Shown: in pieces, positions 1,038 to 21,626 of the stretch
Layout of the letters: every line of letters begins with the position of its first letter
How positions within the stretch are numbered: position 1 is the stretch's first letter
The notes under the pieces: model-generated
What the model saw: the letters and a program-made list of their open reading frames with translations, nothing else
Database searches by the model: none
What the model was told of the DNA's origin: nothing
Made by a program: the position numbers and the translations under genes
Source: Gaetbulibacter sp. 4G1
Lineage (GTDB): Bacteria; Bacteroidota; Bacteroidia; Flavobacteriales; Flavobacteriaceae
Direction of reading: 5' to 3'
Assembly (NCBI RefSeq): GCF_002741945.1
Contig: NZ_MDVN01000001.1
Coordinates: forward strand, 186,001-250,000
Length of the DNA stretch: 64,000 bases

Positions 1038-1039
1038 AA

Positions 1040-5300: not shown

Positions 5301-5831
5301 TAAAACTCTTATATCTACTTTAAAATCATTATGATTTATTAAAGTTGATTTTTTTACAAAGCCAAATTTATTACTAGAATTCCACTCATATCTATATGTG
5401 ATGTCTAGGTCTAGGTTGTTTTCTTCAAAGACAATTTTATTTCCGTGAATGTTTTTATACAGATTGGTTTGTGTTCTATATAGCCCCATTTGGCGTATAG
5501 AAAACGGTTCCCAAACATGTAACTTATTATTTACACTAACATGTAAAATGGTCTTACTTCCCGTAATTTCAGACATTTCAGTAATTTTATCATCTGTATA
5601 ATATGGGAATAAAGATGATTCTGCATTTTTTCTACCAGCAGTTAAGCCTCCATTACTTGATATAAACATCCAGTGATTGGAATCACTAACAATACTCATA
5701 AAAAACGGACGCATTTTGTCACTATTAGAAATCTTGTAGAAAGTTTCATTATTAAAAGTGATTAATTCTCCTTTTATATTATCCATTGTATTTGAAACTT
5801 TAAGCTCGTCTTTAAAAACTGTACTATTCAT
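2379..5831 (-). CDS. GH149-like beta-1,3-glucan phosphorylase (cytoplasmic)
   Basis: An 1150-residue protein with no signal peptide or membrane segment, so cytoplasmic. Length and the central (alpha/alpha)6-type region, with aromatic motifs NWRDIFQNWE and WSYIGYWGDHQ near residues 468-532 and RPEWNDANNALVGNG near 648-662, fit the phosphorylase group of GH94/GH149/GH161. The size and laminarin-locus context favour GH149, which phosphorolyses beta-1,3-gluco-oligosaccharides to glucose-1-phosphate. By analogy with GH94 the Asp of WND (about residue 653) would be the catalytic acid. It lies between surface glycan-binding proteins and two exported GH17 enzymes, and would process imported oligosaccharides. 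A hairpin upstream (5867-5906) may lower its expression relative to the exported proteins. Family assignment is from recognition, not a profile search. Confidence 0.78.
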   Translation of the reverse strand: MNSTVFKDELKVSNTMDNIKGELITFNNETFYKISNSDKMRPFFMSIVSDSNHWMFISSNGGLTAGRKNAESSLFPYYTDDKITEMSEITGSKTILHVSVNNKLHVWEPFSIRQMGLYRTQTNLYKNIHGNKIVFEENNLDLDITYRYEWNSSNKFGFVKKSTLINHNDFKVDIRVLDGLQNILPASVTSDLQNTRSNLVDAYKKSELQKEVGLGIYALSSVIVDKAEPSEALKANTVWSTGLTNPTYLLSSFQLDDFRKGLPLQEEINVKAEKGAYFISTQIELESGGERNWMFAANVNQSISDVVKISEIIKNEDNLSGLVQSNIDLGTKNLIDLATASDGIQLTADPLTNTRHFANTLFNIMRGGIFDDAYTIEKSDFIKYISKANKEVYKEKERTLSALPNMFSLNDIKGFAEKSKNYDFKRLCLEYLPLKFSRRHGDPSRPWNKFSINTRNEDGSKILDYEGNWRDIFQNWEALAHSYPEFIEGMIHKFLNATTFEGYNPYRVTKDGFDWEVIEENDPWSYIGYWGDHQIIYLLKFLEFVEDHYPGDLEKRFNENLFVYANVPYKIRSYTDTLKNPKDTIDFDYNLDHKINEKREKIGADGALLEDQNSDIYRVNLIEKLLATVLSKVSNFIPEGGIWLNTQRPEWNDANNALVGNGVSMITLNYLQRFLNFFEGIVEKSELNNIEISNELNTFFRQVFITLDANKNILDDKISNQDRKTVLDGLGKAGSIYRETIYNNSFSGNKDVISKEGLLEFFNVTKAYLEHTIVANKRNDNMYHAYNLMTIENDDEVSLSHLPVMLEGQVAALSSGYLTPTEALELLNGLKDSTLFRRDQYSYILYPDKELPRFDKKNNIPVEKVEQSILLKQLIANNNWQVIEKDVLGNYHFNGSFNNANSLLAALNNLSEDYKSLVENDTSFLLETFEEIFDHKSFTGRSGTFFGYEGLGSIYWHMVSKLLLAVQENCLLAINSNEDAVVIGKLFDHYYEINAGIGVHKSPELYGAFPTDPYSHTPATKGAQQPGMTGQVKEDILSRFGELGVFVKNGKLIFKPGLLQTKEFLKEPSIFSFANVSKEKQSIALEANSLCFTYCQVPIIYKRSENESLKVVFNTGEQVEFDNKSLDLKTSKSIFERQGEVNQIIVKFSK

Positions 5832-5932: not shown

Positions 5933-8128
5933 TTATTCTAATCTTATATCATCAAAATAATATATCCCTTCAGCACTAGTTGTTTCACCATCTGTTCCAT
6001 CTGGATTATCTGGCTTTATAACTAGCTGATTTAGCCCAGTATTATTTCCAGGTATCCCTGTAAATGTAATTTCAACTTCTGTCCAAGTATTAGCATCTGT
6101 TATAGTTGCGTATTGTGGTCCTGGATTACCAGAAGCTGGTGGTTGAGGGTCACTATTTACTTCAAATTTCATAACCGTATTAGCTACAGTAGAATAAACT
6201 TTAAACTTGAATGTTTTGGTCGCGTCAAAATTGCTAGGGAATGGGTTTTGGAAACCTGCCCATCTATTTGTTCCCGATGCTTTAACTACTTTCAACACAT
6301 AGTCTGAAGTGTTTATTCCTGTTTTATCTGGATTATCATCCAATGCAGTTGAAATACTACCCACATCAGTAAATGTACTTATGAAAGATTCGCAACTTTC
6401 AAAATTCACTGGGAATGCTGTTGCTGCAACTGCTGTACCTGAGCATCCGCCGCCAGTACCGCCTCCGCCGCCACCGCCACCGCCGGAACCAAGGTTTAAT
6501 TTTAAATCATCAAAATAATATGTATTATTACTTGCTGTTGCTAAATCAAAGAAAATTACAAGTCTGTCATAAATACCACTATCTGCTGCATTAAAAGGAA
6601 TTGTAAGTTCTTCCCATTCATTTGTTTTGGTGGTAGTTGTCGTAGATTCTCTATCTCCAGAAGTTGTAGCTCCACTTGAGGTTTTATCTTCTAACTTTAA
6701 AGTTACTTTATAACCAGATTGTGGAGAAAATACTTTTATCGTGAAATTAGAGCCATCAGTAAATGTAAATTTATCATCAAAATCTATTTGTAAATTATCC
6801 CAAGCTTGTACATTTGATTTAGTTACTTTACCTACTTTACATGAGGTATTAGCACCTGCAAAATCCGGATTATCTACATACTCATAAGTAACATTGTCTT
6901 GGAAAAATTTGTTTGATTCACTACCCTGAGCAGTCGTGGTACCTGGGTCGCTCATAAAAGTTAAATCGAAATCTGATGGGTTTATAGATTGCATTGTTTC
7001 AGCAACACAATTACCGCCTCCTCCACCAGAGCCTAGGTTTACTTTAAGATCATCAAAGTAATATGTATTATTATTTGCAGTTGATAAATCAAAGAATACT
7101 ACAAGTCTATCATATTTCCCGCTATCTACTGCATCAAAAGGTATTGTAAGTACTTCCCACTCATTTGTTTTCGTTGTACTTGCTGTAGATTCTCTATCAC
7201 CAGAAGTTGTAGCTCCACTAGAAGTTTTATCCTCTAGTTTCAATGTTACTTTATAACCAGACACTGGAGAAAATACTTTTAAAGAAATATTCGAACCATC
7301 TGTAAACGTAAATTTATCATCAAAATCGATTTGCAAATTATCCCAAGCTTGCACATTTGATTTTGTTACTTTACCTACTTTACAAGATTTATTTGCATCA
7401 GTAGATGGGTCTGGATTATTAGCATATTCATAAGTAACATTGTCTTGAAAAAACTTACCAGATTCGCTACCTTGAGCTGCTGTAGTACCAGGGTCAGTTA
7501 AAAATGTTATATTAAGATCTGTTGGACTTAATGATTGTTCTGTTTCATCCTCACACGCTATAGCTGAAACATTAACAGTTCTTTCAACTTGTTCAGCTGC
7601 GTTACCTTGAGCATCAGATACATTATAAGTAATTACATAAGTCCCTTCTGTATTGATGTCAACTGTGTCTCCACCAACAACGATACTAGCAGTAAGATCG
7701 CCATCAACTTCATCAAGAGCTGTTGCTCCTGGATCAGTAAAGGCATCTCCTATGGTTAAATTTATGGTTGAGTCTCCTAATAAGGTAATTAACGGAGCAT
7801 CTTGATCTAAAAATGTTATTGTGTCTTCAAAAGTATCTGAAGCTCCAGCAACATTTTTTGCTTTTAATACTACAGTAAATGATCCTATTCCATATCTTTT
7901 TACAGGGTTTATTAATGTTGATGAAGTACCATCTCCTAAATTCCACTCGTGTTTCTGAGCGTTTTCAGAGGTATTTATAAATGTTACTGTTCTTGTATCG
8001 CTATCTATAGTATAAGTAAAGCCAGCAACAACTTTTGGTAAAACTACATCATCGTCTTCACAACCTATAAAAGCTACCGCTAATATAAGTACTGAAATTT
8101 GTTTAAATCTTCTTAATAATTGTTTCAT
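5933..8128 (-). CDS. Modular surface glycan-binding lipoprotein (PKD, Ig-like, three CBM-like modules)
   Basis: A 731-residue lipoprotein (lipidation at about Cys23, FIGC followed by EDDD, an acidic stretch associated with surface export in Bacteroidota). Modules in order: PKD domain (about 34-107), Ig-like domain resembling DUF5011 (about 110-188), and three beta-sandwich CBM-like modules (about 192-366, 374-548, 561-731). Each CBM-like module ends in a YYFDD(L/I) strand. The first two are nearly identical and are joined by poly-Gly linkers. No catalytic motif is evident. In a laminarin locus the likely role is capture of glucan at the cell surface, as a SusE/F-like or SGBP-type protein. It lies 14 bp downstream of the GH16 gene. 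Ligand specificity is inferred from context only. Confidence 0.82.
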   Translation of the reverse strand: MKQLLRRFKQISVLILAVAFIGCEDDDVVLPKVVAGFTYTIDSDTRTVTFINTSENAQKHEWNLGDGTSSTLINPVKRYGIGSFTVVLKAKNVAGASDTFEDTITFLDQDAPLITLLGDSTINLTIGDAFTDPGATALDEVDGDLTASIVVGGDTVDINTEGTYVITYNVSDAQGNAAEQVERTVNVSAIACEDETEQSLSPTDLNITFLTDPGTTAAQGSESGKFFQDNVTYEYANNPDPSTDANKSCKVGKVTKSNVQAWDNLQIDFDDKFTFTDGSNISLKVFSPVSGYKVTLKLEDKTSSGATTSGDRESTASTTKTNEWEVLTIPFDAVDSGKYDRLVVFFDLSTANNNTYYFDDLKVNLGSGGGGGNCVAETMQSINPSDFDLTFMSDPGTTTAQGSESNKFFQDNVTYEYVDNPDFAGANTSCKVGKVTKSNVQAWDNLQIDFDDKFTFTDGSNFTIKVFSPQSGYKVTLKLEDKTSSGATTSGDRESTTTTTKTNEWEELTIPFNAADSGIYDRLVIFFDLATASNNTYYFDDLKLNLGSGGGGGGGGGTGGGCSGTAVAATAFPVNFESCESFISTFTDVGSISTALDDNPDKTGINTSDYVLKVVKASGTNRWAGFQNPFPSNFDATKTFKFKVYSTVANTVMKFEVNSDPQPPASGNPGPQYATITDANTWTEVEITFTGIPGNNTGLNQLVIKPDNPDGTDGETTSAEGIYYFDDIRLE
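6485..7555 (-). repeat. Internal tandem duplication of a CBM-like module
   Basis: Two copies of a roughly 175-residue module (about 7031-7555 and 6485-7009) are nearly identical at protein level. They share long blocks such as KVGKVTKSNVQAWDNLQ, GYKVTLKLEDKTSSGATTSG and NNTYYFDDLK. The copies are separated by a linker containing a short Gly run. The second copy ends in a longer Gly run encoded by GGC/GGT-rich DNA, locally more GC-rich than its surroundings. The similarity points to recent duplication or ongoing gene conversion. Confidence 0.9.
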
Positions 8129-8142
8129 TGTCTTTTTTTTAA

Positions 8143-8994
8143 TTAGTTGTAACTATTTTTATATACTCGCACATAATCTACAAGCATGTTTTGTGGAAAT
8201 ACTGTTTCTGCGTTTGGAGAACCTGGTAAGGCGCCACCCACTGCTACATTTAATATAATGTAGAAAGGCCCGCGATTAAACACCCACTCTCCAGTTACGT
8301 CTTCTGGTGTTATTTGATTGTATAATACATCGTCTACATAGTAGTTAATATAATCTGGTCCCCATTCTATACCGAAAATGTGGAACCCAGTATCAAACCT
8401 ATCTCCGTCTAATTCATAAGATTTAGTAACACCTTGAGCTCCCGAGTAACCTGGACCATGTACAGTACCAAAAACTTTTGTTGGGTGATTCCCTACATAT
8501 TCCATAATATCAATCTCGCCTATTTGCGGCCAAACCTCTGACCCATTAGAATCGTCTCCTAATAACCAAAATGCTGGCCAAATCCCCTTACCATAAGGTA
8601 ATTTAATACGTGCTTCGAAGCGTCCATAAGTTTGTTGAAATTTTCCTTTAGTTAACAGTCTTGCTGAAGTATAATTAGAACCATTAAACTGTTCTTCCTT
8701 TGCAGTAATAACTAGAACTCCGTTTTGTACCGTTACATTTTCTGTACGGTCTGTATAGTATTGTAATTCACCGTTTCCCCAACCGTTATCTCCAGTACCA
8801 ATATTATAGTTCCATATAGTACTATTAGGCGCTCCGTCTGTATCAAATTCATCAGACATAACTAGTTCTGTGAATGTTGCTACGGTTTGTGTTTCGTCTG
8901 TTTCACAACTAGAAATAACAAAAGTCGTTATCAACAGAAAAGAAATAAACAGTAAAGCTTTATTGATTATTTTATATTTTATTGTTTTGTTCAT
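8143..8994 (-). CDS. GH16 laminarinase (endo-beta-1,3-glucanase) lipoprotein
   Basis: A 283-residue lipoprotein (lipidation near Cys30, ISSC) with a single GH16 beta-jelly-roll. The catalytic signature is GEIDIMEYVG, giving nucleophile Glu160, assisting Asp162 and acid/base Glu165. Upstream are WNYNIGTGDNGWGNGELQYY and the WPAFWLL strand typical of bacterial laminarinases (GH16_3 type). It should cleave internal beta-1,3 bonds of laminarin outside the cytoplasm. It lies 22 bp after the CBM/Ig lipoprotein and 14 bp before the modular binding lipoprotein, within one likely operon. The protein lacks its own CBM, so the separate binding lipoproteins on either side may supply substrate targeting. 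Confidence 0.94.
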   Translation of the reverse strand: MNKTIKYKIINKALLFISFLLITTFVISSCETDETQTVATFTELVMSDEFDTDGAPNSTIWNYNIGTGDNGWGNGELQYYTDRTENVTVQNGVLVITAKEEQFNGSNYTSARLLTKGKFQQTYGRFEARIKLPYGKGIWPAFWLLGDDSNGSEVWPQIGEIDIMEYVGNHPTKVFGTVHGPGYSGAQGVTKSYELDGDRFDTGFHIFGIEWGPDYINYYVDDVLYNQITPEDVTGEWVFNRGPFYIILNVAVGGALPGSPNAETVFPQNMLVDYVRVYKNSYN

Positions 8995-9016: not shown

Positions 9017-10420
9017 TTATTCTGAATAGAAGTAAATGTTGTCTAAATAAAAATTAGTTAATGAAGAGCCATTAACGTTTTCATAAATTAGAAGGCCAAT
9101 CTTACTTTTATCAGCCAAACTTATTGGAATCTCAAGTGTGCTCCATGTATTTGAAACAAAATCAGAGGCTTTAAAAAACGCTTGTTGTCTACCACTTTCT
9201 GTTCCCCCATCATCAAAACTTACAATTGAAATTAGAAAATCAAGATTTGAAGGGATGTCACCTGGTATAAACATATTAATGTGTAGGTTAGGCTTTCCTG
9301 TGGCATCAATAGTTGGGTTTTGAAACTGAGTTCCAACAAAATTAAAGTTAGTATAGTTTAGAATGTTATCTCCCTTTATTTCAAAGTCATCAGATCCTGT
9401 AGTTTGAAAAGGCTCCCAAAATCCATTAAAAAAATCAACAGGAACATTATCGTATACATCACTAAATATAGAAATGACATTATTAGAATCTCGTGTAGGC
9501 GTTGGAGCAAAATTAAATTCTCCTAATACATCAACAATTAAAGATCCTTCTGCCTGAACACCTGCAGATGATGCTGTAATAACAGACCTACCAATGTTAA
9601 GAGATTCAAAAGTCCCTGTTTCATCAATAATCAAAACATTTGAATCTGAAGATGTCCAGTCAAAATAACTGCGTGAAGCATTAACAGAAATGTTTTGTCC
9701 TGAACCTAAGTTAAATGTTACAGTTGGTGCATCTACCAGACCGCCAGTTTCAACAAAAGTTTGTGTTTCTACATCAGCACCACCATATATTTTTGGTATT
9801 GGTTGACCAATAGTTCCTAGTTTTTCAAATTTTAAATCATCAATCCAAAAGGTATAACCAAGTCCGCCTGTATCTTGTGTTCCTGCTGAATACCAAAACA
9901 TACCTCTTTCTTCAAATAATTTAGAAGCATCTGGAATAGGAATAACATATTTAACCCAATTAGTACTAAAACTTACATTTTCAATTTGAGCTTGATATTT
10001 ATTTTCTAAAAAATCTTGGCCAAATCCTAGTTGACCAATTACTACGCCTTGAGAGGCTTTAGCCCAAAACGTTAAGGCATCATAACCTGTTAAATCACGA
10101 CCAGCTCCATCTGTTCTAAATATGGCTCCAGCATAACTACCATCTGGGTCGTTTGCATTAGGCACATCAAAACGCATAGAGGATTGACTTTCGTAACCTT
10201 CGCTATCATCTACAGTCCAAGCTGTAGCTTTTGATCCCAAAAAAGGAAAGTAAAAGTTGGTACCTAGTCCAATAGGAGAGTCTGTAAAAATTTCTCCAGC
10301 TGAAGAATTTGTTGCGAACTCAACCTCGTCTGATAAGTCTCTTTCACAACTTACCGTGGCAATAAAAACTAATCCTATTAGTAATACAGCTGTTCTATAT
10401 TTAAATTTAATATTTTTCAT
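9017..10420 (-). CDS. Glycan-binding lipoprotein with two CBM-like modules and an Ig-like domain
   Basis: A 467-residue lipoprotein (lipidation near Cys25, VSC followed by ERDLSDE). An N-terminal beta-sandwich module (about 45-200) ends in FWIDDLKFE. A bacterial Ig-like (BIG2-type) region spans about 207-298, recognisable by WTSSDSNVLIIDETG and VITASSAG. A second CBM-like module (about 303-467) begins with the PTPTRDSNNVISIFSD signature often found next to GH16 domains in Bacteroidota and ends in FYLDNIYFY. No catalytic residues are evident. Likely role: binding of beta-1,3-glucan for the GH16 and the barrel-anchored glycosidase encoded beside it. The specific ligand is an inference from the locus. 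Confidence 0.8.
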   Translation of the reverse strand: MKNIKFKYRTAVLLIGLVFIATVSCERDLSDEVEFATNSSAGEIFTDSPIGLGTNFYFPFLGSKATAWTVDDSEGYESQSSMRFDVPNANDPDGSYAGAIFRTDGAGRDLTGYDALTFWAKASQGVVIGQLGFGQDFLENKYQAQIENVSFSTNWVKYVIPIPDASKLFEERGMFWYSAGTQDTGGLGYTFWIDDLKFEKLGTIGQPIPKIYGGADVETQTFVETGGLVDAPTVTFNLGSGQNISVNASRSYFDWTSSDSNVLIIDETGTFESLNIGRSVITASSAGVQAEGSLIVDVLGEFNFAPTPTRDSNNVISIFSDVYDNVPVDFFNGFWEPFQTTGSDDFEIKGDNILNYTNFNFVGTQFQNPTIDATGKPNLHINMFIPGDIPSNLDFLISIVSFDDGGTESGRQQAFFKASDFVSNTWSTLEIPISLADKSKIGLLIYENVNGSSLTNFYLDNIYFYSE

Positions 10421-10433
10421 CTTTCTGTATTTT

Positions 10434-13400
10434 TTATTTTCCTATGTTGATATGTATATATGTTCTAATTTCCCATTCTTGTCCATCATCAAACCCAATT
10501 GTACTAATTGTTGGAACTGGTGGAAATGTATTTGGCGGCACCTGATTAGGTGCGTAACGTGGTGAATATTGATCAAGTGATCTCCATGTTCCGCGAATAC
10601 CAATTTTAGTGTCTGGTAGTATAAACCAATCTGGCTTTCCTATAGTTGTAGATAAGTCTAACATTAATTGTACTGGGTATGTCAAGTTAAAATCTCGATG
10701 GTAATCGAAAGGTCCCCAATCATTAATTTTAAAGGCGTGTGTTAATTTTAACTTGTTATATATTAATCTTATATCTCCTCCAATACGCTTAATCATTCTA
10801 TCGTCACTACCATTAGATTGTCCATTACCCGCATAAAAATTGGCTATAATACCTAAATCTGGATGTGCTTTGGCAACAATTCGTGAATGTGCTTCCCAAA
10901 GATCTTGTGCAGGCGCAGAATTAGGAAATGCAAATGAATTACGATTATCTAAAAACCCAATAGCTGCATCCATTGCTGTTGGATGGTGCTTATATACAAA
11001 GCCTAAATTGAAAGCAAATTTTGCATCTTCTGCTCTGTCATTATCCCATTCATACATCCAGGTTCCTGGAGTTGGATCGTAACTTAACAATAACTCTCCA
11101 GCAGTAGTCTCTCTATTTGCTCTTACTGCAAATGGATCGTCTTGAATATTTCTTAATCTACCAGGTGCTTGCACATCATTTGGCATAGCTGCAACAATTG
11201 GCTTTTGCCATAAAAAGTTAGGTGCTATTTGAAAATTACCAACAGTTAATGCTATACCTGTTAAGAAGTTAGTTTGGTTACCACTTCCAGTATCTTTAAG
11301 CTTCCACCCGGTAAATGTTTGAGTTTGGTCATAACCTCCATTTGCAACTATACCTTGTATTGCGCCTTGAGCATACCAATTAAATTTCCCTTTTTGGTAA
11401 GTAATTTTCCCTTTGGCACCCCAATTATCTTCCCAATTAACTTTATCATTATAGATAACATATTTAGGATTAGATGTAGGATTATTAGCGTCGTAATTAG
11501 GATTATCTTCAGCTACTTGAAATTCTCTACCGTTTAAAGGTTCACCTCCCCAAATACCTCCTAATTGAAGTTCAAAAGCTCCAAATTCTTTTTCTAGTGA
11601 TAGTGTAGCTCTTCGTGTTTTGGGTTGTGGTATTGCTATAGATGTTACTGCTTCTCCAACGTCGTCTATATCTTCATGATAAATGGCACTAAAATTAAAA
11701 TGACCAAGTTTAAAATTATACTTTAACAACACTGCCGGATTTGCTCCCCACCATAATTGAGGTCCAAATGCTGCTTTTAATCCTTTAAGACCTTTTTTAC
11801 CATCTATTTCTATACCAGATATTTCTCCTTGATAAATATCAAGATTAGGACCGTAATTTGCCTCTGGGTATAATCCAAATATATCTCCTTCATAACCCCA
11901 GTGATAATGTCCTGTACGGAAGAAACCTCTTAAATCGAATTCTTTAGCTTTCCACTCAAATTCTGCATTGTAAACTTGTACTCTATTACCACTAATGATA
12001 TCTACTGGACCATCCTCTGTATTTACTGATACTGGCCGCCCTCTGTTTTCATAAAAGATTTCATCAATTGGGTTTTCTGCAACGTTACCCAAAATGTTAA
12101 AGTTTACATTCGCCGTCATGTTAGATGTTGGCTTACCTTCTACTCCCACAAAATAAGACTGCATATGGTCAAACCCTAATTGATTTGGGAATGTAGAATT
12201 ATCATCTGGATCTACAGAATCTGGGGTTGTAATTAAGCTACCTCCTGTATTAAACGTGGTAAACTCTGCTCTTAAATTGCTTATTTTAATTTTTCCACCA
12301 GATTGTGCATCTAAAGCCGCCTTGTCACCACGTGCTTTTAACATGGCTTCCGTAATATTGATATTTTTAAAATAGTTATTAAGAAATTCCAAAGACATCC
12401 CCTCATCATAAGGATTAAGGGCGTGTGCATCCTTAAGTGTATAATATGAAGCACGAGGATACAAATCGTAAAGCCCTCTTGCGCTTGTTGGTCCTTTAGC
12501 ACAAATACCAAACCACTCCTCGTTCATATTATTTGAACCGTTTTTCGTATCGTGATAATACCCTCCATTACTCCATGAGGCACCAGTTTGATGTGTATCG
12601 GCATCTTTACGTTTGTCAAAACCTAATTTCCACCAACCGTCACTGAATTGGAATGTAAAACCTCCTATAGAATTTCCTACTTTCCCCAAACCTGAAGCGT
12701 TTTCATAAATTTCTTTCCAGTTTGACAAATTATAATGTGCTTGCCAGTATTGATCTTCTTTTTCTTCTAGAGCGTTATAGGCATCTGCACCAAACTCTGT
12801 AAACATAAGAGGTATGCCAAGCTTGTCTTTAACCACTTGAAAGAAATCTCCAAATGATTCTCCTCTATAAGTATTAGCTCCATATACGTCAATATCTTTA
12901 CATTCTTCTGCTATGATATCAATAAACAAAACATCTCCGTTACATATTGCAACTGGGTGATTTGGATCCATTGCTTTCATTTTGATAGCAACCTCATTCA
13001 TTAGCTTGTACATTGGTCGACCACGTAGTTCGCCTACTGCATTAATTTTTTCTTCGCCATCAGGAAAGTCTTCTGTTTCTGCTCCTTGCCAAAATAATCC
13101 GTAGTTATTTTCATTACCCATCATATACATCAAAATCCCAGGAACATCTTTATATTCTTTGACCAAATTGATCATATCAGACACTAGTTGCTCTTGTGTT
13201 TTTTCATCTGAGTAAATTGTAACGGGTGTCCAAACACCATCTAATGTTAGGCCATAACGACCAAATGAATGGTTTAACAGAGTATAAATTCCATATTTTT
13301 CATATATATATGTTACCCATTTAGCAGGCACACCTACATATTGTCTTATAACATTAACATTCATGTTCTTTAACAGACCCATTTCTGTATCAAGCCCTGC

Positions 13401-13616
13401 CTTTATGATATCATCTGGCTGCTCATAAAAATTGGCGTTAGTAACATCAGTACCTATTGGAACATAATCCCAATTCACACCATTAAGCATAAAGTCTTTG
13501 CCGTCGACAACCAGTTTCTGGCCTTCTTCACTACTAACAATCTCTACTTTATTTGCCTGGGCAAATGTTGAGACCGTAAATAAAAAGAGTAATAATCTTA
13601 GAAAATTGTTTTTCAT
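10434..13616 (-). CDS. Glycosidase TIM barrel (clan GH-A, GH2/GH5-like) fused to a probable outer-membrane beta-barrel
   Basis: A 1060-residue protein with a Sec signal peptide (about residues 1-20, no lipobox). Residues about 30-400 form a clan GH-A TIM barrel close to the GH2 catalytic domain: FMLNGVNWDY near the start, acid/base Glu169 in MMGNENNYG and nucleophile Glu274 in FTEFGADAY. From about 440 to the end there are repeated amphipathic strands with alternating hydrophobic residues and polar turns. The C-terminal strand is EWEIRTYIHINIG, typical of outer-membrane beta-barrels. The usual GH2 beta-sandwich domains are absent. The simplest reading is a glycosidase tethered directly to an outer-membrane barrel, possibly a porin. 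It is the first gene of the second transcription unit, behind a promoter region resembling that of susC. Catalytic specificity is presumably beta-glucan. Confidence 0.72.
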   Translation of the reverse strand: MKNNFLRLLLFLFTVSTFAQANKVEIVSSEEGQKLVVDGKDFMLNGVNWDYVPIGTDVTNANFYEQPDDIIKAGLDTEMGLLKNMNVNVIRQYVGVPAKWVTYIYEKYGIYTLLNHSFGRYGLTLDGVWTPVTIYSDEKTQEQLVSDMINLVKEYKDVPGILMYMMGNENNYGLFWQGAETEDFPDGEEKINAVGELRGRPMYKLMNEVAIKMKAMDPNHPVAICNGDVLFIDIIAEECKDIDVYGANTYRGESFGDFFQVVKDKLGIPLMFTEFGADAYNALEEKEDQYWQAHYNLSNWKEIYENASGLGKVGNSIGGFTFQFSDGWWKLGFDKRKDADTHQTGASWSNGGYYHDTKNGSNNMNEEWFGICAKGPTSARGLYDLYPRASYYTLKDAHALNPYDEGMSLEFLNNYFKNINITEAMLKARGDKAALDAQSGGKIKISNLRAEFTTFNTGGSLITTPDSVDPDDNSTFPNQLGFDHMQSYFVGVEGKPTSNMTANVNFNILGNVAENPIDEIFYENRGRPVSVNTEDGPVDIISGNRVQVYNAEFEWKAKEFDLRGFFRTGHYHWGYEGDIFGLYPEANYGPNLDIYQGEISGIEIDGKKGLKGLKAAFGPQLWWGANPAVLLKYNFKLGHFNFSAIYHEDIDDVGEAVTSIAIPQPKTRRATLSLEKEFGAFELQLGGIWGGEPLNGREFQVAEDNPNYDANNPTSNPKYVIYNDKVNWEDNWGAKGKITYQKGKFNWYAQGAIQGIVANGGYDQTQTFTGWKLKDTGSGNQTNFLTGIALTVGNFQIAPNFLWQKPIVAAMPNDVQAPGRLRNIQDDPFAVRANRETTAGELLLSYDPTPGTWMYEWDNDRAEDAKFAFNLGFVYKHHPTAMDAAIGFLDNRNSFAFPNSAPAQDLWEAHSRIVAKAHPDLGIIANFYAGNGQSNGSDDRMIKRIGGDIRLIYNKLKLTHAFKINDWGPFDYHRDFNLTYPVQLMLDLSTTIGKPDWFILPDTKIGIRGTWRSLDQYSPRYAPNQVPPNTFPPVPTISTIGFDDGQEWEIRTYIHINIGK

Positions 13617-13946
13617 AGTTTTATTTTTTTAAGTTGGTATAAACAAGTTTTATTATTTACAATGTTGTGGTAGAATTATGGGATGTTGCGTTGTTATAAA
13701 ATTACCTTAATAAATTAAGAATTTCATAAAGAACGCCTCAACAAAAAACATACATAGTGAAAAAAACTTGATTATTATTCTAAAATCCTAACAAAAACAG
13801 CTCCTTGTTGCAGTATTTTATTTTTTATTTTCAGAATATAAATTTTACAAAAATGCTTACTTGTTGTGGTAATGTATAGGTTAAAAAAACACGTGTTGTG
13901 TTTTTTTAACCTATAAAAACAATTTGATTAGTCAATTTCTTGTAAC
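13617..13946 (-). promoter_or_regulatory. Upstream regulatory region of the glycosidase-barrel operon
   Basis: This 330-bp gap has no plausible gene. It holds two sequence blocks shared with the susC upstream region. One is TGTTGTGGTAATGTATAGGT at 13862-13881 (18/20 identical to 21607-21626). The other is ACAAAAAACATACAT at 13741-13755 (15/15 identical to 21487-21501). The blocks are 106-107 bp apart in both places. A weaker third copy of the first block (TGTTGTGGTA at 13663-13672) lies nearer the start codon. A hairpin overlapping the first block probably terminates the susC operon. The region likely contains a regulated promoter reading left (minus strand). Confidence 0.6.
13875..13915. terminator. 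18-bp perfect palindrome, probable terminator of the susCD operon
   Basis: TATAGGTTAAAAAAACAC (13875-13892) is perfectly complementary to 13898-13915 with a 5-nt loop. It lies 32 bp after the stop codon of the 319-residue lipoprotein, the last gene of the susC unit. The A7/T7 tracts lie inside the stem, so a bidirectional terminator is plausible but not classical. The left arm overlaps the block shared with the susC promoter region, so an operator function is an alternative. Confidence 0.5.
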
Positions 13947-14906
13947 CTAATCATTAGGATTATCAGTTTGATATTTACAATACCAAGCCAAATCTGGATT
14001 AGAACTATCAGTCATTCTTACAAACAATGTGTTTTCAGTTATCTCAATAATTTCTAGTGTGCTAACATTTACATACCAAGACATAAAACCGCCATCTGAA
14101 AAATTCATTGTTGTTCCTCTATAGTCACCATCTTCTGTTGCTGTTGAAGATGATGGGCTAAAACCAACATTTTTAATACCATCTAATGAAGGAGCCACAG
14201 TTAAACCATGACATGTATCTCCATCTACACCTATTGAAGCTGCAAAGTCTCCAGGCGTATATGCTATATCTGTTAGTTGCTCAAAAGTTACTCCGCCGTC
14301 AGCAGATTGTGTAAAAACAAACTCTGCATCATACATACACAATTTATCACCATGCCAAGCATCAGAAGTAAACCACTGAGAGAATGTATGTTCACCTCCT
14401 GATTGTACAGCATTTGGCCCTAAACCAATGTTACCAGGCTTATCTGCAGCCCAATACCATGTTTTACTTAATCCAGCCCCACCTGTTAAAAAATCTTTAG
14501 CTTCTTGATCTTCAAAAGAGCTAAAAACATCAATATTTATAGATGCAGTACTAGAAATACCTCCCCTTCCTGAAGCTATAACTGTAACTGAATACGTATT
14601 TGTTCCTGTTAAACTAAATCTGTGCGTAATAGATCCTGAAGGGGCCACTTTAACATCTGACCCATCCCCAAAATTAAATCTATATGTAATTGCTCCATTA
14701 GAATTCACTGTAAAGTTTACTAATCCAGTTCCATCTCCGTTAGGATTAGTTGCATCTAAACCTACTATTTCTGCAGATATAGAAACATCCATAGGTGCTG
14801 TTATGTCTCCAAAACTAGCATCATCATCTTGACAACTCACAAATATCATTGTCAATGACATAAATAAAACTATTACTAGTCCTTTATTGTTTATAAATTT
14901 TTTCAT
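13947..14906 (-). CDS. PKD-domain surface lipoprotein, putative glycan-binding protein
   Basis: A 319-residue lipoprotein (lipidation near Cys25, VSC followed by QDDD). A PKD-like domain (about 40-125, with RFNFGDGSDV and HRFSLTGTNTYSVTV) is followed by a C-terminal domain of about 180 residues. That domain is rich in Trp and Tyr (KTWYWAADKPG, FSQWFTSDAWHGD, FMSWYVNVS) and resembles domains found in other SusD-adjacent lipoproteins. No catalytic motif is apparent. It is the last gene of the susC-susD unit, a position commonly held by surface glycan-binding proteins, so capture of beta-1,3-glucan is the likely role. The C-terminal domain is not assigned to a named family here. Confidence 0.75.
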   Translation of the reverse strand: MKKFINNKGLVIVLFMSLTMIFVSCQDDDASFGDITAPMDVSISAEIVGLDATNPNGDGTGLVNFTVNSNGAITYRFNFGDGSDVKVAPSGSITHRFSLTGTNTYSVTVIASGRGGISSTASINIDVFSSFEDQEAKDFLTGGAGLSKTWYWAADKPGNIGLGPNAVQSGGEHTFSQWFTSDAWHGDKLCMYDAEFVFTQSADGGVTFEQLTDIAYTPGDFAASIGVDGDTCHGLTVAPSLDGIKNVGFSPSSSTATEDGDYRGTTMNFSDGGFMSWYVNVSTLEIIEITENTLFVRMTDSSNPDLAWYCKYQTDNPND

Positions 14907-14926
14907 AATTCAATCTTATTTATTAA

Positions 14927-16888
14927 TTAGTTAGAAGTTAAAGAAACATTATCAATATTTACTTGACCTATTTCTGCTCCCATATCAAATATTACACGTG
15001 CATCAGCAGCTCCAAAATCTGCTGCTTCAAGAGTTAGTGTATATGTTGTTCTTGTTGGTGTAATGCTAACTGATTCTGTGGCACTTGACCATGGTGGACC
15101 ACTTAACCCTATACCAGAAACTATTGCCCTATTGGTATCTGACCAAGCATCAAAGGTTAGCGTATAAGTTAAGCCTTGAGTAATTTCAACTTTTTGACTC
15201 ATATTTACATCCCAAGGATTTCCAGCTGTAGCAACATCTGCAGAATAATATGTGTTTCCTGAATCTGTAACTACAGATACAGGAGCATTATCATCTGTTC
15301 CAACAATCCAAGGTTCACTTCCTGCTTCAAAATCACCATTAGTTAATATACCATCATCAAACGGACCATCACCTAAAAATAAAGACACATTATCTATATT
15401 CACCATTCCTACTTCAGCTCCCATATCGAATATAACACGAGCATCTGGAGCTCCATAACCAGCCGCAACTAGAGTTAATGAATATGTTGTTTTAGTTGGT
15501 GTAATGTTAACAGATTCTGTCGTGCTCGACCATGGTGGACCACTTAAGCCTATGCCTGAAATTATTGACCTATTAGTATCTGACCAAGCATCAAAGACTA
15601 ATGTGTAAGTTTCATCTTGAATGATATTAACTTTTTGACTCATATTAACATCCCAAGGGTTTCCTGCTGCAGTAACATTTGTAGTATAATATGTATTTCC
15701 TGAATCTGTAACGACAGCTACAGGAGCATTATCATCAGTACCTACAATCCAAGAATCTGCTCCAGATTCAAAATCGCCATTTGCTAATAAACCATCATTG
15801 AACGGGTCTGCACTTTGTAAATCAATATTATCTACATAAAATGTCCAGTCTGTACTTCCATCTCCAACGATACCAAAATCAAAAAACCATACTAATTTTT
15901 GATAGGTCTGCGATAAATCAATATCGCTAAAATCAATAAGTACTTCTTCCCAAGCACTATTACCTTGCAAAGTGACTTCTTTTTCTATATTAATATTAGC
16001 ATCGTCAAGGTTTTCTATTTTGAAGGTTAATTTCCCTCCAGGTCGAGGAGACCAAACATCTAGTTTTATAATGTTTTTAGAGCTAAAATCTATAGGTGCA
16101 GAGGTAATAATAACATCTCCTGCCCAAATTTCTGGAGCTCCTTTAACAATCTTACCTACTTTAGCAGAAGCATTACCATCAGTATCTGGATTATCTACTA
16201 CCTCAGCAGATGCGCCTCCAAAACCAATAAACTTACTAGAATCAAAAACCTCAAAATCGATAGGCATTTCTACAGGTGATGATACTGTAATAACTTCTGT
16301 TAACTCTGTAGTCTCAGAACCACCACTTAAAGCTACTACTTTTAAAGTGTAGTCGCCAACACCTGCGTATTCAAAACTTACAGTTTCTCCAACTTGCATT
16401 GGTGTTCCTTCTTCAGCTGGATTAGACGTGTCAAAAAACACTAAAAAGGATGCTGCATAATCTGCAATTGCTGAAACATTTACAATAAATGGGTTAGAAG
16501 CATCTATTTGAGTTGTAATCTCTAAGTTCTCTGGCGCCCTAAAAGACACAACTAATTCTTTACTAATAGTTGTTTTTAATCCATTAAGTCCAACAGCCTC
16601 TACGTTAACCGAATATGTTCCTTCTAGATAAGAATGATCCAAACTTTCTCCTTGCTTTACACTTTCAGAACCCTCGGTGCCATCTCCAAAAGTAATATTA
16701 TACATTACTGCTCCGTCAGAGTTTGGTGTAATTGAAACCAAACCACTATTGTCTTGAGATATTTTAAAAAGAGCCGATACATTTGTAGGCGCTTCAATTT
16801 TATCAACAAAACTTAAATCGTTATCATCTTCAGCACATCCTATAAAGAATACTAAAGTTAAACTCAATATATATTTTAATGCTTTCAT
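14927..16888 (-). CDS. Multimodular glycan-binding lipoprotein with tandem CBM4-like domains
   Basis: A 653-residue lipoprotein (lipidation near Cys18, FIGC followed by AEDD). Modules in order: two PKD/Ig-like domains (about 31-115 and 117-203); a CBM-like beta-sandwich (about 205-358, ending WTFYVDNIDL) of the type seen in the 731-residue protein; and two tandem CBM4/9-like domains (about 364-504 and 510-651). Each CBM4-like copy starts with NGDFE.G and contains SDTNR..(V/I)SGIGLSGPPWSS and ends VNIDNVSL. CBM4 domains of this kind are known to bind beta-1,3-glucans, which supports laminarin as the target. It follows susD by 17 bp and precedes the PKD lipoprotein by 20 bp. No catalytic motif was seen. 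Confidence 0.84.
   Translation of the reverse strand: MKALKYILSLTLVFFIGCAEDDNDLSFVDKIEAPTNVSALFKISQDNSGLVSITPNSDGAVMYNITFGDGTEGSESVKQGESLDHSYLEGTYSVNVEAVGLNGLKTTISKELVVSFRAPENLEITTQIDASNPFIVNVSAIADYAASFLVFFDTSNPAEEGTPMQVGETVSFEYAGVGDYTLKVVALSGGSETTELTEVITVSSPVEMPIDFEVFDSSKFIGFGGASAEVVDNPDTDGNASAKVGKIVKGAPEIWAGDVIITSAPIDFSSKNIIKLDVWSPRPGGKLTFKIENLDDANINIEKEVTLQGNSAWEEVLIDFSDIDLSQTYQKLVWFFDFGIVGDGSTDWTFYVDNIDLQSADPFNDGLLANGDFESGADSWIVGTDDNAPVAVVTDSGNTYYTTNVTAAGNPWDVNMSQKVNIIQDETYTLVFDAWSDTNRSIISGIGLSGPPWSSTTESVNITPTKTTYSLTLVAAGYGAPDARVIFDMGAEVGMVNIDNVSLFLGDGPFDDGILTNGDFEAGSEPWIVGTDDNAPVSVVTDSGNTYYSADVATAGNPWDVNMSQKVEITQGLTYTLTFDAWSDTNRAIVSGIGLSGPPWSSATESVSITPTRTTYTLTLEAADFGAADARVIFDMGAEIGQVNIDNVSLTSN
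14936..15799 (-). repeat. Tandem duplication of a CBM4-like module
   Basis: Copies at about 15377-15799 and 14936-15361 encode two modules of about 141 residues with only scattered substitutions. Shared blocks include IVGTDDNAPV, VVTDSGNTYY, AGNPWDVNMSQKV and DARVIFDMGAE. The duplication is visible at DNA level and would raise avidity for glucan chains. Confidence 0.9.
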
Positions 16889-16905: not shown

Positions 16906-18384
16906 TTAATATCCTGGGTTTTGTGCCCATCTATCTCCTGCCAACTGTATTTCTATTTGTGGTATAGGAAATACTTCATGTTTTCCAGCAGTAAAACCGT
17001 CAATTTCAGTAGCAGCCCTACCTGTTCTAACTAAATCGAAAAAACGGTGCCCTTCTCCTACCAACTCAACTCGACGTTCTTGGTAAATATCATTAGTTAA
17101 ATTAGATCCTGTAGTTGTTACGTTAGGCAACATCGCTCTAGTACGTACGCGGTTTAAATATCCTTGTGCTCTGGTATCACTAATGCTACCTCTATTTAAT
17201 GCTTCTGCAGCCATTAATAAGACATCAGCAAAACGTATTGACCTATAGTTATTAGGATTCGTTAAGTTAGCATCACCAGTATTTAAATCGCCTTGTCTAG
17301 ATATGTACTTTCTATTAAAGTATCCTGTATGCTCATAACCTGTACCAAATGATGCTCCAGTATCTGTAGCCCAAGTATCTATATTTAGTATAGCAGTATC
17401 TAATCTAAGATCTCCAGCTTCAAATGCATCAACAACTTCTTGCACTGGTACATTAAAACTAAAGCCAGATTCAAATTCTGGTCCACTATAATTTCTTATT
17501 CCATTAAATCCAACTGCAACATTACCTTCACTACATTGTAAACATTCAAAACCAGCACCTTCTGTATCGATATACTGAACTTCAAAAACAGATTCTATAT
17601 TGTTTTCGTTATCATTCTCAAATATTGGCAATATTGTTAAGCCTTGTACATTTCTGGTTTCTGTAACTAAATCGTAAGGTCCATTGTTAATTAAGTCCTC
17701 TAAAACTGTAGCAGCTTCTGTAAATTTATCTTGATACAGATAAGCTTTACCTAGCAACGCTTGTGCAGCTCCTTTAGTAACTCTTCCTACCTGTGACTGC
17801 GTATATGGTAAGTTAGCCGCAGCAAACATTAAATCTTGTTCTATTAAAGCATAAACTTCAGACTTAGGAGACCTTTCTATTACAAACTGGTCTCCAAACT
17901 CAATACGTTTATCAACTAAAAAAGGAATATCTCCAAACCACTTTACTAACTCAAAATTATAATAAGCTCTTAAAAAACGTGCTTGCCCTATAACATTGTT
18001 TTTGTTAGGAAAGTCAATATTATCTTGAAACTCTAAAATAAAATTGGCTCTATTTACTGCTCCATACATCCAATTCCAAATATCTCTTAAATTGGCATTG
18101 TTTGGTGTATGTATCATATCATCAATTTCTTGAAAACCGATAACATCTGTAGCGCTTTCTCCTCCACACAATGTGTTATCTGACGCTATTTCGCCTAACA
18201 TTACATTTACATAGGTGTATTGTAACCCGTCATATGCTCCTGTTAAAGCCATTTGATAATCTTCTTCAGTGTTGAAGAAACTTTCTGAATTCGCATCTGG
18301 CGAATCAACATTTACAAAATCGTCGCTACAAGAAAAAATTAACGCGATAACTATAAATATACTTTTGATTTTTAAATTTTTCAT
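16906..18384 (-). CDS. susD: SusD-family outer-membrane glycan-binding lipoprotein
   Basis: A 492-residue lipoprotein (lipidation near Cys19, IFSC followed by SDDF). It has the SusD/RagB architecture: N-terminal SESFFNTEEDYQMALTGAYD, a TPR-like helical region with FLRAYYNFELVKWFGDIPF, and a C-terminal segment containing RSIRFADVLLMAAEALNR, YQERRVELVGEGHRFFDLVR and the closing PIPQIEI...NPGY. It would form the lid of the adjacent SusC transporter and bind glucan oligosaccharides at the cell surface. The gene starts 8 bp after susC ends. The call as a SusD homolog is firm; the symbol is by family, and laminarin specificity is inferred from neighbouring GH16, GH17 and GH149-like genes. Confidence 0.95.
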   Translation of the reverse strand: MKNLKIKSIFIVIALIFSCSDDFVNVDSPDANSESFFNTEEDYQMALTGAYDGLQYTYVNVMLGEIASDNTLCGGESATDVIGFQEIDDMIHTPNNANLRDIWNWMYGAVNRANFILEFQDNIDFPNKNNVIGQARFLRAYYNFELVKWFGDIPFLVDKRIEFGDQFVIERSPKSEVYALIEQDLMFAAANLPYTQSQVGRVTKGAAQALLGKAYLYQDKFTEAATVLEDLINNGPYDLVTETRNVQGLTILPIFENDNENNIESVFEVQYIDTEGAGFECLQCSEGNVAVGFNGIRNYSGPEFESGFSFNVPVQEVVDAFEAGDLRLDTAILNIDTWATDTGASFGTGYEHTGYFNRKYISRQGDLNTGDANLTNPNNYRSIRFADVLLMAAEALNRGSISDTRAQGYLNRVRTRAMLPNVTTTGSNLTNDIYQERRVELVGEGHRFFDLVRTGRAATEIDGFTAGKHEVFPIPQIEIQLAGDRWAQNPGY

Positions 18385-18392
18385 AACGCTAA

Positions 18393-21300
18393 TTAAAATT
18401 TTAAGTTAAGACCAAATAAAAATGTTTTTGGATTAGGATAAAACCCTTGATCTATTCCTCCTCCAATTGGACTACCTGATGAGGCTGTTGGATCGTAACC
18501 TCTGTATTCGGTTAATGTGAAAAGATTACTCGCCGATACATATAAGCGTAGCTTGTTTATTTTTGAGTCTTCTGATTTAGGATTAATAGTATAACCAAAT
18601 TGTATGTTTTGTAATCGAACAAAAGACCCGTCTTCTACAAAATAATCTGAAAATAATCCGTTAGAATTTGCTCCAGATGTAACTCTTGGGTCTGTGTTTG
18701 ATGTTCCTTCGCCTGTCCAACGGTTTAAGTAATTAACTGTTCTATTTGTTAAATTTTGATTACGCTCATAGTTACGAACAATTTCGTTTCCTAAAGAAGC
18801 AAATGCGTAAGCTGAAAAATCAAAATCTTTATAGTCAAAAGAGATATTAAGTCCCATGGTAGCGTCTGGAAGCGGATCTCCTATATATGTTTTATCATCA
18901 TCGTCTATTTCTCCGTCATTATTAAGATCAACAAACCTTAAGTCTCCTGCTTGCACATTATTATCTATGACAGCAGAATTATCAACCTCTGCTTGGTTTT
19001 GAAAAACACCATCGGTTTTAAATCCTCTGAAATAACCTATTGGATATCCTGCCTCCATTCTTGAAGGTGGATCTTGACCTACACCAAAACTTCCTCCTGA
19101 TAAAAACCCGCCATCTGAACTTACAGAAATTACTTCGTTATCAATAGTTGTAACATTATACTTTACGCTGAATTTAAAATTGTCACTTAAATTACCTGAA
19201 TATCCAATTGCAAATTCTAAACCTTTGTTTTCTACAACTCCTGCATTAATAGTAGGTGCACCAGAACCTGCTGCTCCTCCTCCAATGATTCCTGAAACTT
19301 GAGGGGTTACTAATAAGTCTTCTGTAGTCTTTTTAAAATAATCTGCCGTTATATCTAACTTATTATCTAAAAACTTCATATCAACACCTATATCCCAAGT
19401 TTTTTGTTTTTCCCATCGTATTTCTGGGTTGGCTATAACTCCTGGTGCTAATCCGTTTACCAGTTGATCGTTAAACACGTAAGTACCTTCTCCGTTTAAT
19501 AACGATACAAATCTAAAATCTCCAATTCTATCGTTACCTAAAATACCATAAGACGCTCTAAACTTTAAGAAGTTTATCGTATTACTATCAGCAAGAAAAT
19601 CTTCATCTGAAGCAATCCATCCTATAGAACCAGATGGAAAAATACCAAATTTATTAGCAGGTCCAAACTTAGAAGATCCATCTCGACGTACTACGGCTGA
19701 TAATAAATATTTACCTTTATAATCGTACTGCAATCTTGCAAAGTATGATAATAATCTGGAATCGAATGTATCATTTCTTCCTCTAAGCTGAAACCTATCT
19801 TCTACACTACTTGCTTCTGCTATACTTGCATTAACAACTGAATTTCCTTTAATATCAAACCCTTTTTTTCCTGTAAACTCTCCTGTTGTTTTAAAAATAG
19901 AAGTACCTAATAACACATTAACTTTATGTACATCCTTAAATGTGTTTTCATAATTGATAAAAGCATCAAATGTATAGTCTCTAAAATAGTCAAGGTTTTC
20001 TATAACTTCACTTCTATCTATATTAAAGACCTTACCACTTCCATAATCAACAACTGGCTTAAATATTTTCGACCTCACTTCAGAATAATTAAACTGAATA
20101 TTAGCCTGTGCTGTAAAATGCTCTAAAAAGTTGTATCCTAAGCCTGCATTTCCACTAAGCCTACTAACCTTAGTTCTATCATAAGCATTAGCGGTTTGAG
20201 CTATTGGGTTTATAACTTCGTTACCCAAGCCTTCAGCTATTGTAAACACACCCATTTCGTCTCTAACTGCTTTGGTTGGATCCATATTTAAAGCATTAAA
20301 GAGTACCGAACCTAGAGCTGATTCTATTAAGTTTTTCTTATTAGTACTTGTATAAGTCAATCCTGATGTAAGCTTAAAATTTTCTAAAAAATCTAAGTTA
20401 TAACTCGCACGCTTTGTAAAACGTGTAAAGTTGGATTTGCTTCCACCTACAATACCATCTTGCGTTAAAAAGGAGCTACTGAATGAGTAAGATGATTTTT
20501 CTGTACCACCTTTAAAAGTAATACTATTGTTAAAAATTGGAGCTGATTGAAACACCTCGTCTTGCCAGTTTGTACCTACGCCTAAAGCTGCTATATCTGT
20601 AAAAACAGGATCACTTCCGCCTGCGGCAAATGCTTCATTTACTAATAAAGCATATTCTGTTGCGTTTAGTGCTGGTAACTCTCTTGTGGTTTGTTGAAAA
20701 CCTCCATAAGCATTATACTCAACGGTTAAAGGCATATCTCTACGCCCAGTTTTAGTTGTAATTAAAACCACACCGTTAGCAGCTCTAACTCCATAAATAC
20801 CTGCCGTTGCATCTTTAAGTACATTTATACTTTCAATGTCACTTGGGTTAACAACACTTAAATCTTCAACAACATTACCATCTACCAATATTAAAGGTCT
20901 GCTGTCTCCATTTGTGGAAACCCCTCTAATACTAATAGTTGTTCCTCCTCCTGGAGACCCCGATTGCGATGTTATATTAACACCTGCAACTTGCCCTTGT
21001 AGAGCCTGCTCTACCCTTGTAGGTTTCAAAGCATCAATGGTCTCTGCACCAACAACTGATACTGCTCCAGTTATTTCTTTCTTGGTTTGTGTACCATAAC
21101 CAATAACAACTACTTCATTTAGTTGGGCTACATCTGGTAGTAATTGAATTGCTAGATTATCACTATTAGCAATTACTACTTCTTGAGTTATATAACCTAT
21201 ATAACTAAAAATAAGTATTGAACCTGTTTGAATATCATCAATAGTAAAATTACCATCAAAATCAGTTACGGTTCCTTTACTGGTATTTTTGACCAATACA

Positions 21301-21419: not shown

Positions 21420-21486
21420 GTAGTTAGTTTTTTTAGTTTTCGTAAATCTAGTTTTGAAAATTGAAGAATCCATATTTTTTGCCCAA

Positions 21487-21626
21487 ACAAAAAACATACA
21501 TGTTAAACAAAATTTATTTTTTTTATGAAAACCTTACAAATTACAGTGATTTATTAGCAAATAAACAGTCTGCCTTATAAAGCAATAGAGTGGTATTTTT
21601 CTTAAATGTTGTGGTGAAGTATAGGT
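21487..21626 (-). promoter_or_regulatory. susC operon promoter/operator region
   Basis: Block 1 is TGTTGTGGTGAAGTATAGGT (21607-21626, just after the stop codon of the regulator gene). Block 2 is ACAAAAAACATACAT (21487-21501). The segment just upstream of block 2 on the transcribed strand also resembles the corresponding segment of the other promoter region (around 13756-13800). On the minus strand a weak match to the Bacteroidota promoter is TAAATTTTG (complement at 21508-21516) with TTG 20 bp upstream (complement at 21537-21539). The -7 element has one extra base compared with TAnnTTTG, so the promoter assignment is tentative; the shared blocks are directly visible. Confidence 0.55.

Follow-up and report, generated by a model that had tools for sequence, protein, structure and literature searches.

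A clan GH-A glycosidase domain joined to a predicted outer-membrane beta-barrel in a laminarin-type locus of Gaetbulibacter sp. 4G1

Architecture of the Enzyme-Barrel Protein

The stretch of DNA analyzed here (the window) comprises 64,000 nucleotides (nt) of the Gaetbulibacter sp. 4G1 genome (contig NZ_MDVN01000001.1, positions 186,001 to 250,000), and harbors a gene (10434..13616, minus strand) with an ATG start and without an internal stop, encoding a protein of 1060 amino acids (aa) in which a glycosidase domain precedes a predicted outer-membrane beta-barrel. The chain comprises, in order, a signal peptide (residues 1-20; 13557..13616, minus strand) judged by eye and lacking a lipobox, a clan GH-A (GH, glycoside hydrolase) TIM-barrel domain (residues 21-405; 12402..13556, minus strand), a helical linker assigned by DSSP in both the full-chain and the C-half structural models (residues 409-440; 12297..12392, minus strand), and a C-terminal half predicted from the model, loop pattern, and Foldseek matches to form a 24-strand outer-membrane beta-barrel (residues 443-1059; 10440..12290, minus strand). 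A loose lipobox pattern occurs in three of 41 members of the fusion family, none with two or more acidic residues after it.

The fusion is not peculiar to this genome. A search of one genome from each of 84,980 species listed at least 80 matching loci, and in 79 of the best 80, whose record titles we take to be those of Bacteroidota, the chain is a single open reading frame (ORF) with 65-92% identity; one of these (L045) lacks ∼33 residues at a contig start, and in the 80th (L109) the ORF runs off its contig.

The Enzyme Half

The N-terminal half matches the Pfam model for the GH2 TIM barrel (PF02836; residues 33-292; E 1e-4; 22 bits, with the cut-off at 21), which we take to belong to clan GH-A. 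This clan carries an Asn-Glu pair after strand 4 and a Glu after strand 7, and both are present: E169, preceded by N168, in the motif MMGNENNYG (13110..13112, minus strand; the predicted acid/base) and E274 in the motif FTEFGADAY (12795..12797, minus strand; the predicted nucleophile). All three residues are invariant in a 64-row alignment that includes the window's protein (drawn from 93 full-length rows, among which some strains occur twice), and also in 30 fused, nine barrel-less, and five outgroup sequences. By the Pfam match, the structural model, and the invariant residues, the N-half is a clan GH-A TIM barrel with conserved predicted catalytic residues, as an earlier note on this DNA, made from its letters and reading frames, had proposed.

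A Foldseek search with the full-chain model placed GH158 endo-laminarinases at the top of the list (E 5e-13, 12-15% identity; best matches 9p26 and 6pal), with GH2 and other TIM enzymes, BtuB, ZnuD, LptD, and AlgE lower down. By sequence the GH158 similarity is weak (phmmer E 0.012; profile E 0.015), and when GH158(Pro) is aligned by profile, at low scores, its TEFG lies opposite E274 and its LGNE opposite N168-E169, the latter in a second low-scoring segment. In BuGH158 (6pal), N136, E137, and E220 are essential (PMC7157763). The two proteins share the TIM barrel, the N-E and E residues at matching places, and a beta-1,3-glucan locus, but the signal of BuGH158 is of type II and its chain ends in an Ig-like domain (PMC7157763), whereas in the fusion protein a helix and the barrel come after the TIM domain.

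Membership in GH2 was also considered, and rejected. In GH2 enzymes, jelly-roll and Ig domains precede the TIM barrel, whereas the TIM domain here starts right behind the signal peptide with no preceding domain, and of the GH2 models only that for the TIM barrel matches. Distant kin of the TIM domain also occur as standalone proteins of ∼340-390 aa (L016-L025). Four of the six that were scanned (L016, L017, L018, and L021) have GH2_C matches together with weak GH72 matches, and L021 has a type IX secretion tail.

The Barrel Half

Residues 440-1060 of the window protein have no Pfam, NCBIfam, or PDB sequence match at E 0.001; the C-halves of nine diverse relatives likewise have no Pfam or NCBIfam match at this threshold, and an 80-row C-half profile found no PDB match up to E 10. 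The nearest matches are noise: an antibody domain (E 0.11) and, in one relative, a TonB receptor model from NCBIfam (E 0.083) within the barrel. Neither a TonB plug nor a TonB receptor was matched by Pfam in the window protein or the nine relatives, and a TonB-dependent transporter of the SusC type was rejected as an identity for the protein given the lack of an N-terminal plug domain by Pfam. A PHROGs search returned nothing of use, and an Rfam search found no match.

AlphaFold2 modeled the full chain with a mean predicted local distance difference test score (pLDDT) of 72.9 and a predicted TM-score (pTM) of 0.49; residues 404-1060, modeled with 80 rows (79 of the 80 loci and the window), gave 70.3 and 0.69, respectively. 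The C-half model has two helices of more than eight residues followed by 30 strands of three or more residues. With six short strands omitted, the barrel has 24 strands, or 26 if a hairpin of two seven-residue strands is counted. In a Foldseek search with this model, the best 50 of 809 PDB matches (E up to 10) are all outer-membrane barrels, and the matches include TonB receptors, MOMP, chitoporin, AlgE, LptDE, and a chain of the Mtr complex, which has the top TM-score (0.42) and which, going by its length, is presumably MtrB. Since these best 50 of 809 hold no soluble sandwich or propeller, the outcome that would have told against the proposed barrel did not appear.

The connections between strands alternate in length, with a mean of 24 residues behind odd strands vs. 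4.8 behind even strands, a contrast equaled in 5 of 100,000 permutations (p 5e-5). Such long/short alternation corresponds to outer loops and periplasmic turns; because the strand number in the model is also even, we infer that both ends of the barrel, and with them the enzyme, lie in the periplasm. Between the two strand faces, the content of lipid-type residues differs by 0.42, as compared with 0.28 (sd 0.04) for random C-half segments, and the C-terminal strand has 0.72 such residues on one face and 0.20 on the other, which bears out the alternating hydrophobic final strand reported from the sequence. Thus the features of an outer-membrane beta-barrel (an even number of strands, long outer loops, short turns, and alternating hydrophobic faces) are all found, with four exceptions among 23 connections. 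The C-half is best described as a predicted barrel with 24 strands that represents a new sequence family; this architecture is well supported by the modeling, and the family has no model in the copies of Pfam and NCBIfam used. The earlier note had placed glucan hydrolysis at the mouth of, or beside, the pore; by the loop pattern, the enzyme would be on the periplasmic side.

Distribution and Coupling of the Two Halves

Thirty of 99 related genomes have a match. Fourteen of them, the window's own included, encode the full chain, and in one more (G050) the contig stops behind the enzyme. Among 395 sampled Bacteroidota genomes, a C-half profile found 35 matches: 33 lie in frames of 1028-1084 aa and are thus fused (one of them, G298, across two contigs), and G328 and G215 are broken. 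An N-half profile found 56 enzymes in the same sample, 13 of them distant and 43 at E 1.5e-120 or better; the close homologs comprise the 33 fused proteins, nine that end after the TIM domain (364-480 aa), and the broken G328. Among the nine, G424 is truncated at the front by its contig and G215 has a barrel remnant behind the enzyme. All 33 unbroken barrels carry the enzyme; in this sample, the enzyme exists without the barrel and the barrel never without the enzyme. This supplies the count of the domain pair across Bacteroidota that the earlier note had suggested. The remnants behind the enzyme domains of G215 (L182) and G328 (L184) contain in-frame stops, and represent either loss in progress or sequencing error.

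A tree of 48 TIM domains, built without G148, G298, G348, and the broken G328, has five changes of barrel state, with one long-branched row (L176), and the placement of all barrel-less forms in one clade is rejected (p-AU 4.6e-5). At least one of these changes looks like a loss, because G215 keeps its remnant.

A Partner Lipoprotein Inherited with the Barrel

The gene following the fusion gene in the window starts 13 nt downstream and encodes a putative lipoprotein of 467 aa, here termed HP467 (9017..10420, minus strand). It is the next gene in 79 of the 79 loci that show the position, with a gap of 11-13 nt in 47 and of 532 nt in one; 15 of the 79 gaps are negative, because ORF starts in these loci are first-ATG guesses (neighbors were named by their best matches to the genes of the window locus). 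A GH16 gene comes directly behind HP467 in 74 of 76 loci in which that position can be seen, and the order HP467 then GH16 recurs in 20 of 20 further annotated regions, some of whose genomes overlap with the first set.

Cys25 of HP467 is invariant in 34 aligned members (33 of 65 candidates and the window copy). The window copy has no Pfam match; among the 34, bacterial Ig-like Big_2 is matched in 17, Big-like in 14, CBM11 in two, and CBM30 in one. In a profile search against the PDB, the Ig region matched a teneurin-like protein (E 1.5e-14), and two entries at E 0.12 are, we presume, CBM30 structures. In Bacteroidota, acidic stretches after the lipobox mark surface lipoproteins. Of the 27 lipoboxes detected among 41 HP467 members, 23 have at least two acidic residues behind them, compared with 2 of 14 lipoboxes in 24 members of the GH17 lipoprotein.

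Genome-wide, HP467 was found in 33 of 33 genomes with the barrel vs. none of ten that have the enzyme without an unbroken barrel; three of these ten show partial or weak HP467 matches only. The HP467 gene of G397 is split over two contigs, and that of G239 lies ∼10 kb from the barrel. In the barrel-less loci, the gene after the enzyme is GH149 (six), GH30 (one), or on the opposite strand (two), and two of these loci (L174 and L179) have SusC and SusD inside the operon. On the tree, HP467 was scored manually with the same states as the barrel, and it parallels the barrel in five of five independent pairs. HP467 goes with the barrel, not with the enzyme.

The Surrounding Laminarin-Type Locus

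All genes of the locus described here are on the minus strand. Beyond HP467 lie a GH16 glucanase that is a lipoprotein by eye (8143..8994; PF00722, E 4.5e-29), a PKD/Ig-like protein (5933..8128; PF16403, PF18911, and PF00801), a GH149 beta-1,3-glucan phosphorylase (2379..5831; NF058639, 1788 bits), a GH17-like protein, also a lipoprotein by eye (1040..2332; PF00332 at E 2.9e-5, below its cut-off), and a second GH17-like protein cut by the window edge (3..1043), named by eye from its likeness to its neighbor; the two tandem GH17-like genes share 4 nt. Past the window edge are a GH30, two major facilitator superfamily (MFS) transporters, and two further GH17 without a signal peptide by eye. Upstream of the fusion gene are two PKD genes, the second with CBM4/9 domains (13947..16888), the SusD and SusC of the same locus (16906..21497), and a regulator with Reg_prop, Y_Y_Y, and LuxR (GerE) matches (21649..24456). 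Variant B of the laminarin loci has a GH16, a GH30, at least two GH17, and SusCD (PMC6298971), all of which are present here; a GH3 is named for variant A. The locus is laminarin-type.

A perfect 18-bp hairpin (13875..13915, minus strand; minimum free energy -22.2, z -5.0) lies 31 nt after the upstream PKD gene, ahead of the fusion gene, and is a possible terminator; it is absent from the list of a scan for consensus terminators. A and T runs lie inside the stem of this inverted repeat. Because the hairpin stands upstream, a separate transcription unit may begin with the fusion gene, in keeping with the earlier proposal that this gene leads one; the gap upstream of the gene is 330 nt, as compared with 13-101 nt between the downstream genes as far as the first GH17.

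Among the 66 loci with at least 5 kb of upstream flank, the next upstream gene is a regulator in 48 (in 46 on the same strand). Same-strand SusC/SusD genes occur in the fetched flank of 12 of the 66 and in none of the other 54, two of which have SusC or SusD on the other strand. A claim that genomes without SusCD in the flank lack it altogether was rejected, because in three of 14 genomes searched the nearest SusD relative lies some way from the fusion gene: G005 has it 17 kb downstream (70% identity), G061 11 kb upstream (50%), and G162 at about 43 kb (40%). Given these cases, a flank without SusCD does not prove its absence. Searched with the SusD_RagB model, G030 and G285 (operon at L147 and L161) have one match each, more than 500 kb away.

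Fusions of an MFS transporter with GH17 were also observed within this operon family (L151:453-2810, L161:342-2717, L153:1-1990, and L182:8617-10968). Three of these loci (L151, confirmed by Pfam, L153, and L161) also hold the enzyme-barrel gene, and MFS-GH17 fusions occur in three of 20 annotated barrel regions. Going by these gene structures, both membranes in the three loci would have a transporter joined to a hydrolase.

Proposed Role and Alternatives

We propose that the protein forms a channel in the outer membrane through which beta-1,3-glucan chains pass, and that it carries its own hydrolase at the periplasmic end, a reading to which we give a probability of roughly 0.6. Together with HP467, it would form a unit for glucan uptake across the outer membrane without a TonB plug, in which transport, substrate, and gating are inferred. 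Glucan may be bound and pre-cut at the cell surface by HP467 and GH16, as the lipobox signals and weak domain matches suggest, and its chains handed to conserved aromatic loops of the barrel before entering the pore. Given that no plug domain was found, passage might occur by diffusion, or might be gated by the enzyme domain or the linker. At the exit, the periplasmic GH-A domain would cut the emerging chain and so keep the gradient inward, and GH17 and GH30, followed by the MFS transporters, the signal-less GH17, and GH149, could finish the degradation.

The conservation of the barrel, computed over 30 fused rows of the phylum sample, bears on this proposal. The predicted outer loop L3 (residues 569-597; 11826..11912, minus strand) is 94% conserved, with aromatic residues invariant at six positions, L4 reads WWG throughout, and L11, L7, and L10 are 93%, 87%, and 86% conserved; these five of the 12 outer loops thus span 86-100%, and the remainder range from 50% (L6) to 79% (L9). 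Mean conservation is 72% for the strands and 51% for the linker (406-442), and the turns range over 42-82%. Because five outer loops are highly conserved while the average over all of them equals that of the strands, strong constraint, as read from the alignment, is limited to selected outer loops. Such selective constraint fits a glucan path better than a mere anchor, without settling the question.

Several observations weigh against the proposed channel. The mean barrel pLDDT is 70, and the Foldseek TM-scores of 0.26-0.42 come with root-mean-square deviations of 11-20 Å; therefore either no solved barrel is close to the C-half or the model is rough. The packing of the domains is poorly fixed, as the full-chain pTM indicates, and the four connections that break the loop rule comprise two short outer loops, L4 (3 residues) and L10 (7), and two long turns, T8 (20) and T11 (10). 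All outer loops together average 0.72 conservation, the same as the strands (0.72), with turns at 0.68, and L6, L12, and L1 are at 0.50-0.60. The identities of the two halves correlate weakly (r 0.32; 80 closely related rows, 3160 pairs). As to the partner, the carbohydrate-binding matches of HP467 are weak, few among its members and none in the window copy, and with five pairs a sign test cannot fall below 0.05 (p 0.0625). For the enzyme, the GH158 match is at 12-15% identity and the standalone kin resemble GH2 and GH72, so the substrate assignment rests on context. Finally, the window retains a SusCD pair upstream, and the enzyme-barrel is accordingly an addition to SusCD here; its replacement of SusCD is not supported. 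The design that the earlier note set apart from SusCD with separate lipoprotein hydrolases is thus found here alongside a SusCD pair.

A more far-reaching version is a glycan importer independent of SusCD, in which the barrel and HP467 would take the roles of SusC and SusD and the hydrolase would replace the TonB plug as a catalytic gate; we hold this to be possible but doubtful. The gate itself, through which every chain would leave the pore by way of the active site, is an equally tentative component. It would require that the barrel never occur without the enzyme, as is the case in the 395 genomes, where the enzyme does live without the barrel.

Alternatively, the barrel may be a mere membrane anchor that carries nothing and fixes a periplasmic laminarinase near SusCD. 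The presence of SusCD in this locus and in the flank of 12 of 66 others is consistent with such a role, as is the lipoprotein appearance, by eye, of four of the nine barrel-less homologs, for which lipidation would be an alternative anchor, and seven of the 12 outer loops are conserved no more than 0.79. However, an anchor accounts poorly for the five loops conserved at 86-100%, among them L3 with its six invariant aromatic residues, has no need of the HP467 that accompanies the barrel in 33 of 33 genomes, and would be a costly use of a barrel of such size. We consider it unlikely.

A surface-displayed enzyme, passing through the barrel or sitting next to it, is more improbable still. Classical autotransporters have an N-terminal passenger and a C-terminal barrel, and the enzyme-then-barrel order is the same; but the barrels of type V systems have 12 or 16 strands and belong to known families, whereas this barrel has 24 modeled strands and no Pfam match, and the even strand number and loop pattern place the N-terminal side in the periplasm. 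Export or remodeling of a self-made glucan, in the manner of the alginate and poly-N-acetylglucosamine export channels with periplasmic partner enzymes, would fit the AlgE among the C-half Foldseek matches and the weak GH72 glucanosyltransferase similarity of four of six standalone kin (L016, L017, L018, and L021), but is very improbable beside neighbors that are catabolic (GH16, GH149, GH17, GH30, sugar MFS, and the Y_Y_Y/LuxR regulator), although no search for a glucan synthase was made.

Relation to Known Systems

The channel proposed here has partial counterparts. Chitoporin-type oligosaccharide porins are sugar channels that work without TonB, and a chitoporin (7vu2) is in the C-half Foldseek list; like the proposed fusion role, it is a sugar channel, but its chain of 435 residues forms a smaller barrel and has no enzyme domain. 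The SusC barrel has 22 strands. SusCD complexes and utilisomes (PMC7618045) resemble the fusion unit in combining an outer-membrane barrel, a co-inherited lipoprotein, and glucanases in one operon, and differ from it in that the fusion protein has no plug that was found, a covalently joined enzyme, 24 modeled strands, and a partner other than SusD. FbGH17b of Formosa sp. (Unfried et al., 2018; PMC6246565) likewise combines a hydrolase with a glycan transporter in a single chain within a laminarin locus, but at the inner membrane and with MFS helices followed by a C-terminal GH17, as opposed to an outer-membrane barrel preceded by a GH-A domain from a different family.

The gene has very probably been described under another name. 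In Muricauda laminarin loci reported in 2026, the gene at the matching position, between a LuxR regulator and GH16 as here, is named a GH2 beta-glycosidase, and the text available to us describes a GH2 enzyme with no mention of an outer-membrane domain (PMC13188888). One sequence listed there, SGIU01000001.1 (strain 176CP4-71), is the contig of a locus in our set (L095), and because of this the identity of the Muricauda gene with the fusion gene is very likely, while still going by position; for a second strain, 2012CJ35-5, the contig number given there differs from that of our locus (L081). A GH2 is also named in laminarin loci of relatives in a Maribacter paper, where laminarin uptake by Flavobacteriia is credited to TonB-driven SusCD (PMC11345257). 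A literature search on enzyme-pore fusions found no title or abstract start describing this protein; subscription papers and supplements were outside its scope.

Laminarin is a major marine storage sugar (PMC7104365). If the proposal holds, a plugless pore with its own enzyme and a dedicated lipoprotein would be a second entry route for laminarin, and the published description of the gene, very probably as a GH2 glycosidase, would be corrected. Transport and cutting would then be joined at the outer membrane of these bacteria, as they are in the MFS-GH17 fusions at the inner membrane.

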